Shown here one piece after another: positions 3,492-7,212 of a stretch of 30,520 bases of DNA. A program made the translations under genes and the position numbers. Source of the DNA: a virus. The DNA lies in IMG/VR virus record IMGVR_UViG_3300029319_000308, positions 1 through 30,520 of that record; one strand, 5' to 3'. Positions within the stretch are counted from its first letter, which is position 1; each line of letters begins with the position of its first letter. The notes below the pieces were generated by a model. That model was given only the letters and a program-made list of their open reading frames with translations. It ran no database searches and was not told where the DNA came from.

Positions 3492-3520
3492 TTGACGGGG
3501 GTTTTATCTTCTGGTACAAT
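3492..3520 (+). promoter_or_regulatory. Rightward sigma70 promoter of the candidate RNA
   Basis: TTGACG (3492-3497), a 17-bp spacer and TACAAT (3515-3520) on the plus strand. The predicted start is near 3527. No protein-coding gene follows before the hairpin terminator at 3786-3827. Confidence 0.72.
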
Positions 3521-3526
3521 GTGCCG

Positions 3527-3827
3527 GTTCCTCCAAAAATAACGTCTGGTGGTTCAGATGCAATACGGCGATGCCGAAGGGGTGTCTTACCCAAAGTATG
3601 TAAATCGGCCCTCAGTATAAAAATAATTATATGTAGCTTCTAGTTGCCTCTATAGGTGCGTACCAAGACCATTTATACCTGTAAAGAGACAGATAGTCGG
3701 GTTGTGATAGAAAGCAGCAGGGTCTTTAATGCAACTGTTTTTACTTTTGCTTATTCAATATTTATGGCAAAGCCAACTTTACAGGTCTAGGTTGGTTGGT
3801 CACACAGAGCCTAGATTAATTTTTTTG
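3527..3827 (+). ncRNA. Candidate structured non-coding RNA, about 300 nt
   Basis: This stretch has its own promoter and terminator-like end and no convincing gene. Three hairpins follow each other: CGTCTG/CAGATG (3543-3560), CGGC/GCCG (3566-3576) and GGGT/ACCC (3580-3592). GCCGGT (3523-3528) and ATCGGC (3604-3609) could close them into a four-way junction, though the predicted start lies within the first strand. Further on, ACCTGTAAAG (3677-3686) pairs perfectly with CTTTACAGGT (3777-3786). AAGACC (3665-3670) can pair with GGTCTT (3721-3726) inside that loop, forming a pseudoknot. It does not match tRNA, tmRNA, RNase P or group I intron landmarks. It is not recognised as a named family. Confidence 0.55.
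3786..3827 (+). terminator. Probable terminator of the candidate RNA
   Basis: TCTAGG (3786-3791) and CCTAGA (3810-3815) form a perfect 6-bp stem with an 18-nt loop, followed by TTAAT and seven T. The loop is large, so strength is uncertain. One base is shared with the long stem ending at 3786, so the two helices could stack or compete. Confidence 0.55.
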
Positions 3828-4017
3828 CCCTACCTCGGAGTGCTTGTTCACTCGCCAGTAACTTTCTTTCCACTGATTGGTTAGAACGCAAAACTACACC
3901 AGTAACGTTTTTTTACAAATTTTCAGTGAATTGTGACGCTTTACAACCATCGCCACACCTAATTATAGTCTGATTTGACGAATTTTGCAAAAACCTTTTT
4001 GGAAAAAGTCTCGTTTC
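3828..4017. other. Intergenic region between candidate RNA and late promoter
   Basis: No gene is seen. There is a short hairpin GAGTG/CACTC at 3837-3852 and a direct repeat CAGTAAC about 50 bases apart (near 3857 and 3900). The rest is AT-rich sequence. Confidence 0.5.
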
Positions 4018-4027
4018 TGTGTATAAT
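3999..4027 (+). promoter_or_regulatory. Late-type extended -10 promoter 1
   Basis: TGTGTATAAT (4018-4027) is preceded at 17 bp by TTGGAA, a partial -35. The predicted start is near 4034. It drives the first rightward gene at 4073. The identical 10-mer occurs at 10864, 12950 and 16047. Confidence 0.75.
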
Positions 4028-4072
4028 AGAATGTAGGAACAAGTTCCTTATTCATAGAACTGGAGACAAAAG

Positions 4073-4237: not shown

Positions 4238-4877
4238 TGCCTTTTGTTTGGCACAATTTAAAAATGATAGATACGAAATAGGGCACTGCTCTCTAGACGA
4301 TTGTTGCTTTGACCGAGAAGTAACCGAATTTTTGCGTCAGAACATGAATTCAGAGCGGTGTATAACCAAAACCGTCCCTATCAACGAACAGTTTTTCTTC
4401 TCAATTTTGCTCTATCACAATAAAGTAGAGCAAGAAAAGTGTGACTGCATTGGCACTTTAGAAAAAGATGGCGATAAATACGTCCTAAATATCAAAAAAA
4501 TCGTCGGTGGAGACAAAATCTACCCAGAATCTCATCATAGATTTCTCATCACCTCTTATTTTCCATCTAAAAATTTCTTTAGTGGTGAGTTTTACCGGTC
4601 TGTTCTCACATCAGATGGTGTTATCACACTAGAAGATAACCAAATGATTGGTGTTAAAGATGGTTTGATAGAAGAATTGGACGTTAATGAGATTTTAGAC
4701 ATGCTCTCTAAGGCTAAAACCGAAAAGTCGCCCTCTTACAAGCAGGTAAAGCTGCAATCTTCAAGGAAAAGACCCCCTAGACCCACCAAAGGTACTATTA
4801 TTTACAACGAAGTCGCAGACGAGTTCGAGGTTTATGGTAAAAATGGCTGGAGAAAGCTAAGGACGGAGGAAATTTAA
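4212..4877 (+). CDS. Hypothetical late protein with tail-fibre-like C-terminal motif, 221 aa
   Basis: The body (residues 1-180) is not recognised. The last 30 residues, around GTIIYNEVADEFEVYGKNGW, resemble a short motif that ends or punctuates many phage fibre and neck proteins, so a structural role is plausible. The ATG at 4212 has AAGGA seven bases upstream and is preferred to a GTG at 4185. The stop overlaps the next ATG by one base (TAATG), which implies coupling to the sigma-like gene. This alternative regulatory link cannot be excluded. Confidence 0.75.
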   Translation: MRIRILKNDAFCLAQFKNDRYEIGHCSLDDCCFDREVTEFLRQNMNSERCITKTVPINEQFFFSILLYHNKVEQEKCDCIGTLEKDGDKYVLNIKKIVGGDKIYPESHHRFLITSYFPSKNFFSGEFYRSVLTSDGVITLEDNQMIGVKDGLIEELDVNEILDMLSKAKTEKSPSYKQVKLQSSRKRPPRPTKGTIIYNEVADEFEVYGKNGWRKLRTEEI

Positions 4878-5398
4878 TGAAAATTCCATCAGGAATGACC
4901 GAACAACAGGTTATAGATCAAATTACCGTAGTATGCAATAGAATATCACCCAGATATACATTTTACGGATATACAAATGAAGACATTTGGCAAGAGGCAT
5001 TTATTATTTGTATAGAAGCCCTTAACAGATATGATGAAGCTCGCCCTTTGGAAAACTTTCTGAGTGTAAATCTATCAAACAGACTAAAGACTTTCATGCG
5101 TGACAACTACTTTATCGGGAACTCGAACGAGGCCCGTAAGAAGTTGGCTCAACCGTCACAGTTAGATTACGAAGATAAAATCATTGATTCTGACACAGAA
5201 GAAGAAGGATACGAAGAGTTAGACTTTAAAAACATGGTTGAAGCAATTGACAAGTACATTCCGGCAAGTATCAGAATGGATTATCTTAAAATCATCAATG
5301 ATATTTACATTACAAAACAAAGAAAAGAAGAAGTTATTGGAATCATAAAGGGCATCCTAGAGGAACAAGGGTTCAATGAAGACCGGCAGAATCAGTAA
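4877..5398 (+). CDS. Sigma factor region 2-like protein (gp55-like late sigma candidate), 173 aa
   Basis: Residues 35-75 look like sigma70 region 2. They contain an acidic helix with W38-Q39-E40-A41, then EALNRYDE (47-54), then FLSVNLSNRLKTFMR (61-75), the order seen where sigma binds the core polymerase coiled coil and reads the -10 box. A clear region 4 is missing, as in T4 gp55, which reads -10 only and directs late transcription. GGAGG lies just before the start. It is co-transcribed with packaging genes. If active it would switch host polymerase to the TGTGTATAAT promoters; this is inference. A non-sigma helical protein remains possible. Confidence 0.6.
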   Translation: MKIPSGMTEQQVIDQITVVCNRISPRYTFYGYTNEDIWQEAFIICIEALNRYDEARPLENFLSVNLSNRLKTFMRDNYFIGNSNEARKKLAQPSQLDYEDKIIDSDTEEEGYEELDFKNMVEAIDKYIPASIRMDYLKIINDIYITKQRKEEVIGIIKGILEEQGFNEDRQNQ

Positions 5399-6195: not shown

Positions 6196-7212
6196 ATGAA
6201 GGCAATCATTTTTGGAATCACCGGTCAAGATGGGAGTCATCTGGCCGACCTACTACTCTCAAAGGACTACCACGTAGTGGGAGTCTCCCGTCGAGCCAGC
6301 ACAGACAACACACAAAGAATCAAAAACATCCTTGGTGACAAAAGGTTCGAGTTGGTTCAAGGCGACATTACTGATGCTCATTCTGTTATAAATATACTTA
6401 AAAAACATGAAGATGTAGATGAAATCTATAATTTAGCCGCACAGTCACATGTAGCAGTGTCGTTCAAGCAACCAGCACTCACATGGGATATAACAGGCAA
6501 GGGCTGTTTAAATATCTTACAGTCTATCGTGGATCTTGATATTAATACTAGGTTTTATCAGGCTAGTTCTAGCGAAATGTACGGTAAAAACTTCGACAGT
6601 GAAGTTGATATGGACAAAACGTCTTCTACTTATAAAAGAATTTCTAAGTTTCAGAACGAAGACACTAAATTTATGCCGCAGAGTCCATATGCAATTGCTA
6701 AGTGTGCCGCACACCATATGACTAGACTATTCCGTGAGGCTTACGGTTTACATGCTAGTGCTGGTATTCTATTCAATCATGAAGGTGAACGACGAGGTGA
6801 AACCTTTGTTACTAGAAAAATCACAAAGTGGATTGGGGACTGGATTAAAAGTGGTCGCGATCCTAACTTTCCTAAACTACGTCTAGGCAACTTGGAAGCA
6901 TTTAGAGACTGGGGGTATGCTGGAGATTACGTGGAAGCGATGTGGATGATGCTTCAACAGGAAAGTCCACAGGACTATGTTATCTGCACCGGCGAAACTC
7001 ATACTATTCGTGAGTTCCTAGACGTAGCCTTTTTACATATTGGGGTTGACGATTGGTCCGATTTAGTGGTTCAAGACCCTGAATTTTATAGACCAGCAGA
7101 GGTTGATTACTTAAGGGGCGATTGCAGCAAGGCAAATAATGTATTGGGATGGACTCCTAAGCACAGCTTTGAGGATTTGGTGAAGAAAATGGTAGAACAT
7201 GATGTATCATGA
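6196..7212 (+). CDS. gmd: GDP-mannose 4,6-dehydratase
   Basis: This short-chain dehydrogenase family enzyme converts GDP-mannose to GDP-4-dehydro-6-deoxymannose in the cytoplasm, the first step to GDP-fucose, GDP-rhamnose or GDP-perosamine. GITGQDG at residues 7-13 is the NADP-binding loop. NLAAQSHVAVSF, ASSSEMYG (123-130), SPYAIAK with Y165 and K169, and the family block around ILFNHEGERRGETFVTRKIT are all present. Full length is 338 aa. An extra ~20 residues separate the active-site Glu127 and Tyr165 compared with bacterial enzymes. AGGAAAGG precedes the start. It sits between packaging genes, with no downstream partner sugar enzyme in the window. Modification of the host surface glycan or of virion proteins is inferred. 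Confidence 0.95.
   Translation: MKAIIFGITGQDGSHLADLLLSKDYHVVGVSRRASTDNTQRIKNILGDKRFELVQGDITDAHSVINILKKHEDVDEIYNLAAQSHVAVSFKQPALTWDITGKGCLNILQSIVDLDINTRFYQASSSEMYGKNFDSEVDMDKTSSTYKRISKFQNEDTKFMPQSPYAIAKCAAHHMTRLFREAYGLHASAGILFNHEGERRGETFVTRKITKWIGDWIKSGRDPNFPKLRLGNLEAFRDWGYAGDYVEAMWMMLQQESPQDYVICTGETHTIREFLDVAFLHIGVDDWSDLVVQDPEFYRPAEVDYLRGDCSKANNVLGWTPKHSFEDLVKKMVEHDVS

Follow-up and report, generated by a model that had tools for sequence, protein, structure and literature searches.

The non-coding stretch at positions 3492-3827 raises the question of whether it encodes a single structured RNA read from the plus strand, as a preliminary description had proposed, or something else. We studied this in the window, a 30.5-kb fragment (30,520 nt) of the uncultivated phage genome IMGVR_UViG_3300029319_000308. 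Using the gene at window 4877-5398 as the query, 38 relatives were taken from IMG/VR, and more members were gained by pattern scans. Blastn revealed two conserved non-coding blocks in the relatives, A at about 3492-3601 and B at about 3655-4040, separated by a gap of up to about 1.4 kb that is filled with minus-strand genes. Judged by sequence comparison, the interval 3492-3827 is composed of two unrelated elements, namely A and roughly half of B, and B is a module placed between A and the rightward promoter in the window's clade only. The rightward promoter, whose sequence TGTATAAT is kept in relatives, serves an operon with ORF 4073 as its first gene. The features of the locus are collected in Table 1.

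Table 1. Features of the locus in window coordinates
Feature	Position	Strand	Basis or remarks
Element A	3492..3601	+	boxes GTTTTATCTT, AAAAA, GGTGGTTCA, TGTNTTACCC at near-constant spacing; outside the RNA
Element B, ~300-nt structured RNA	3655..3956	-	38-member alignment, 40 covarying pairs; strand by G-U/A-C counts
B promoter, leftward, sigma70-type	3962..3990	-	-35 TTGCAA 3990-3985, -10 TATAAT 3967-3962; promoter scan
Rightward promoter, TTGGAA-17 nt-TATAAT	3999..4027	+	promoter scan; outside the RNA
P6, 5′-terminal hairpin	3956-3951 with 3938-3933	-	loop AUGGUUGUAAAG; both-side changes in 6/6 pairs
P5 domain (3871..3928), outer stem	3928-3923 with 3876-3871	-	partner-swap test
P5a, inner stem	3911-3907 with 3894-3890	-	by eye
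P5b, crossing P5a (inner pseudoknot)	3901-3898 with 3881-3878	-	by eye
P3a	3867-3862 with 3714-3709	-	97.8% of cells paired
P3b	3833-3828 with 3722-3717	-	98.2% of cells paired
P4 hairpin	3853-3850 with 3841-3838	-	100% paired; both-side changes in 3/4 pairs
P2 hairpin	3814-3810 with 3791-3787	-	98.9% paired; both-side changes in 4/5 pairs
P1, core of 10-bp stem	3785-3777 with 3686-3678	-	99.7% paired; both-side changes in 5/9 pairs
P7, P2 loop ACCA with 3′ tail UGGU	3800-3797 with 3671-3668	-	94.1% paired; both-side changes in 4/4 pairs

Covarying helices in B were first found by a scan of all column pairs, and were then assessed in alignment A5 of 38 distinct members. Over 40 pairs in seven helices, 97.4% of cells were paired (81.9 after shuffling), 32 of the 40 pairs carried changes on both sides (18.0 after shuffling), and the covariation score was 0.477 (0.171 after shuffling, and at most 0.097 when slid by 1-3 columns), figures for which the helices were picked and counted on a largely identical sequence set whose kin sequences share changes. 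P3a and P3b together showed both-side changes in 10 of their 12 pairs, and this long-range P3 (3709-3722 with 3828-3867) crosses P1, forming a supported pseudoknot. Comparison of own with swapped partners for the outer stem of P5 gave 0/2000, a result in favour of the P5 domain. The variation in P7 is mostly between the two subfamilies, the counterpart in the paralogue B2 (see below) being GGCG/CGCU. The P4 loop and the tail CUUG, a candidate kissing pair, are complementary but too nearly invariant to speak for or against the contact. Most helices are kept, by eye, in the remote member L078. Taken together, these comparisons argue that B is a real structured RNA, the shape of which is kept by compensating mutations.

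The strand was read from the chemistry of the imperfect pairs. The non-Watson-Crick cells in the B helices amounted to 33 G-U and 8 A-C when read as minus strand, with the two counts exchanged for the plus strand, indicating that B is a minus-strand RNA; these counts are partly dependent through shared descent, yet the pattern was seen in several lineages. Similarly, the inner pairs of P6, when read on the plus strand, gave about ten A-C and zero G-U once the misplaced rows L060 and L020 were left out. In almost every B homologue, a leftward -10 element (TATAAT, TAGAAT or TACAAT) precedes P6 by a few nucleotides, so that transcription is expected to start about the foot of P6, and the 5′ end was placed at about 3956/3955. 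The 3′ limit at 3655 is the edge of conservation only. No recognisable terminator was found for B, and its 3′ end, and even its free-standing state, we therefore infer. No conserved reading frame was found across B, the longest stop-free stretch on the RNA strand being 26-66 aa, in agreement with the view that the region holds no convincing gene.

These results preserve the core of the preliminary description, a ~300-nt pseudoknotted RNA outside known families at a divergent control region, and change most of its details. The perfect 10-bp stem 3677-3686/3777-3786, the only one of its kind in the interval, is kept in homologues as P1, with compensatory changes, and covariation at this stem had been set beforehand as a test. 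On the single sequence alone, the flagged motifs do not exceed chance: a perfect 10-bp stem was present in 106 of 2000 dinucleotide shuffles (5%), and a crossing 6-bp helix in 95 of those 106. The letters of the AAGACC/GGTCTT pseudoknot (3665-3670/3721-3726) are present, but their pairing is unsupported (covariation 0.117, against at most 0.090 when slid, with 26 broken cells); it is another pseudoknot, through the same loop, that is strongly supported. The hairpin and T run taken for a terminator occur as described, but this 3′ hairpin, absent from the output of the terminator scan, is the internal P2, and the T run differs among homologues and belongs to the strand opposite the RNA. Of the promoter placed at 3492-3520, the 10 of 12 matches stand in the sequence, but the hexamers are not conserved while the overlapping GTTTTATCTT box is, and the promoter of the RNA is a leftward-reading one at 3990-3962. 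The RNA thus extends over about 3956-3655 of the minus strand instead of 3492-3827 of the plus strand, 3492-3601 being a separate DNA element. A plus-strand RNA over 3492-3827 with this pseudoknot and an intrinsic terminator, for which the named motifs speak, is scarcely credible given the pair chemistry and the oppositely oriented genes that hold A and B apart in relatives. Single-sequence folding was dropped as evidence, the z values (-0.87 on the plus strand; -0.35 and -0.55 for two stretches of the minus strand) being near those of shuffles and uninformative. Such folding can overlook a real RNA that homologues expose, here on the opposite strand.

Element A behaves as DNA. The GTTTTATCTT...GGTGGTTCA pattern was 56 in length in 39 of 40 matches, and the letters between the boxes vary while the spacing stays near-constant. 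In sister phages lacking B, A lies directly upstream of the TGTATAAT promoter and the ORF 4073 orthologue, at distances that cluster near 139, 150, 163 and 173 bp, classes spaced roughly one helical turn apart. Strong copies were found once per contig in nine contigs; in L031 the element lies at 4893-5021 and in L079 at 169-304. An RNA reading of A was rejected, since conservation does not extend to its hairpins and the spacing hardly changes, and a GGGT/ACCC pairing within it was rejected by eye. We read A as a putative DNA site that regulates the rightward operon from upstream, possibly in an enhancer-like manner.

In about half of the relatives, exactly the space between A and B is taken up by minus-strand cargo genes that differ between phages (L007 1233-1916; L016 497-1399; L024 4058-4489; L045, reverse complement, 1258-1980), with family names assigned by eye from the translations (HNH-like, UDP-glucose dehydrogenase-like and KdsB-like); with its varied cargo, the gap is a small insertion hotspot. 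At window 3424-3397, minus strand, a promoter with the perfect sigma70 consensus (TTGACA, 16 nt, TATAAT) is placed for a leftward gene. Nearly identical promoter blocks occur several times over in relatives, each leftward gene having one; L003, L004, L014, L017, L019 and L020 carry copies. The 173-aa anchor protein encoded at 4877-5398 resembles sigma region 2 by eye, and had no PHROG match at E 0.001. A nucleotide-sugar epimerase/dehydratase gene (phrog_540, E 1.9e-76) occupies window 6196-7212.

We identified a paralogue, B2, by running covariance model R1 of the P4-P2 region on long contigs; pattern matches and the contig of L008, the window's closest relative, supplied additional copies. 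B2 lies behind a tRNA gene in six related phages, the closest relative included: behind tRNA-Leu(UAA) in L103, L104, L109 and L119, where in L119 it begins within a few nucleotides of the tRNA end, and behind tRNA-Arg in L108 and L110, about 200 nt apart in the latter. The B2 profile aligned with most B elements along almost their whole length, the strand being minus in window orientation. By eye, the next gene after B2 has its own TTGACA-type promoter in the four loci inspected, and the RNA is therefore not simply one gene's leader. A weak model match in L105, in coding-type sequence without a tRNA, was taken as chance. A genome scan with the B2 pattern gave eight matches, about the number that we estimated to arise by chance for this pattern, of which only L117 was real. 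This contig, 152 kb long and assigned to a SAR202 (Chloroflexota) MAG, bears the L104 phage's B2 locus; the binning may reflect a host link or misbinning.

Two of the B2 islands (L104/L107 and L110) also hold a tmRNA. That of L104 (3585-3901, minus) has the predicted tag GVENYAMAA and matches the permuted tmRNA family RF04321, and that of L110 (9712-10033, minus) has the predicted tag VEENFALAA. A two-piece tmRNA has been reported from the marine phage Melnitz (PMC9004378). In L103, a TnpB/IS605 OrfB-like frame, recognised by eye, lies at 588-1856 with a tRNA gene on either side, and the tRNA-Leu and B2 follow shortly after it.

To our knowledge, few phage-specific structured RNA families have been described, and the function of the best known, GOLLD and ROOL, is open. 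GOLLD and ROOL form RNA-only oligomeric cages. When the window and 12 relatives were compared with Rfam 15, these two families included, no match reached the gathering score. With permissive E-values, the window gave one insignificant 14.7-bit match outside B, L016 gave nothing for B, and L103 and L104 gave only tRNA/tmRNA or sub-threshold matches outside B2. BLAST of B and B2 against 50,697 phage records returned only a 29-base chance match, and one exact B pattern had no match in 84,980 genomes, a scan by exact patterns which divergent members in cells may escape. No description of the B RNA was found in the open-access literature, which is weak evidence of novelty. GOLLD and ROOL are found in phages and prophages, carry several pseudoknots, often lie near tRNA genes, are of unknown function and measure about 600-800+ nt (PMC12286853). 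B is likewise phage-encoded and pseudoknotted and B2 is near tRNA genes in six contigs, but at ~300 nt B is shorter, has its own fold and lacks an Rfam match, and we therefore set it outside these families. Abundant long ncRNAs near tRNAs have also been reported in staphylococcal phages (PMC10383478). Like tmRNA, the permuted phage form included, B is of similar size with several pseudoknots, and B2 shares its islands; however, the islands of L104/L107 and L110 hold a separate, real tmRNA, and ARAGORN and Rfam, which call that tmRNA nearby, found no tRNA or tmRNA match on B or B2, and so nothing of the tRNA-like domain and tag reading frame that mark a tmRNA.

We consider it likely that B represents a new family, a free-standing and probably trans-acting pseudoknotted phage ncRNA, as the best explanation of the whole. 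Leftward transcription from the host-type (sigma70) promoter would begin at about 3956/3955 and yield a ~300-nt RNA that opens with hairpin P6; the P5 domain would fold next, and then a core formed by the interlocking of P1 with the long-range P3, with the P2 loop clasping the 3′ tail through P7. The same RNA would be present as the paralogue B2, directly 3′ of tRNA genes. Beyond the structure, strand, promoter, paralogy and context described above, we infer that B would act in trans and early in infection, as a folded RNA or an RNA-protein particle, given a sigma70-type promoter of its own or an origin linked to a tRNA, and the lack of a constant cis gene; the gene behind B in some phages would be a passenger on B's promoter. 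The likeliest target would be the host translation machinery in view of the tRNA and tmRNA neighbourhood of B2, a suggestion that we make tentatively, and the closeness of B2 to tRNAs may instead mark sites where phages gather genes. A specific part in packaging or in the early/late switch, as earlier suggested, is unsupported: the tRNA islands that house the paralogue are distant from the switch, and the RNA is missing from sister phages that share the rightward control element.

A cis-acting 5′ leader, that is a riboswitch or attenuator of leftward genes, is an unlikely reading of B, although a minus-strand gene follows B immediately in L007, L016, L017, L019, L044 and others. In L007 and L016 at most about 40 nt separate B from the start of this gene, too little for a second promoter, and B is therefore at least physically a leader there. 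B is also compact and pseudoknotted, like riboswitches, and starts at its own promoter; moreover, two CAACCNAGTACCTG repeats, visible in the alignment, could alternately pair with the tail CAGGT, so that P1 and a local hairpin would replace each other. However, leaders keep a fixed position before a gene or gene set, whereas the genes behind B are mutually unrelated and of different kinds, and roughly half of the loci, the window's among them, have no such gene. B also lacks an Rfam match, and its paralogue is no leader, following tRNAs ahead of genes with their own promoters.

The position of B just after an early sigma70-type phage promoter, and upstream of a leftward gene array, also recalls the put RNAs, which suppress termination in cis. 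By this analogy, B could bind its own RNA polymerase for terminator read-through in the leftward early region, a processive antitermination role that we regard as distinctly improbable. The put RNAs of HK022, of which putL directly follows an early promoter, are ~70 nt long with two stem-loops (PMC9378689), whereas B is four times longer, with seven supported helices, interlocking ones among them, and pseudoknots; a strong promoter of their own serves several of the leftward genes, and the B2 copy sits behind tRNAs at the end of their arrays. Still more remote is the reading of B as a replication-origin transcript, an R-loop primer, with A as the binding region of the origin. It would fit the place of B at a divergent transcription junction beside the conserved A, single-copy in nine contigs, but sister phages have A without B, and B2 sits elsewhere.

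It is conceivable, though doubtful, that B and B2 are the two paralogues, one with an early promoter of its own and the other apparently set free from tRNA transcripts, of a new class of trans-acting phage RNA in an uncultivated lineage, which would seize a central host machine, the ribosome or RNA polymerase, early in infection. With its small size (~300 nt), strong covariation and two genomic settings, the family offers a tractable molecule on which structure and function can be tested directly.
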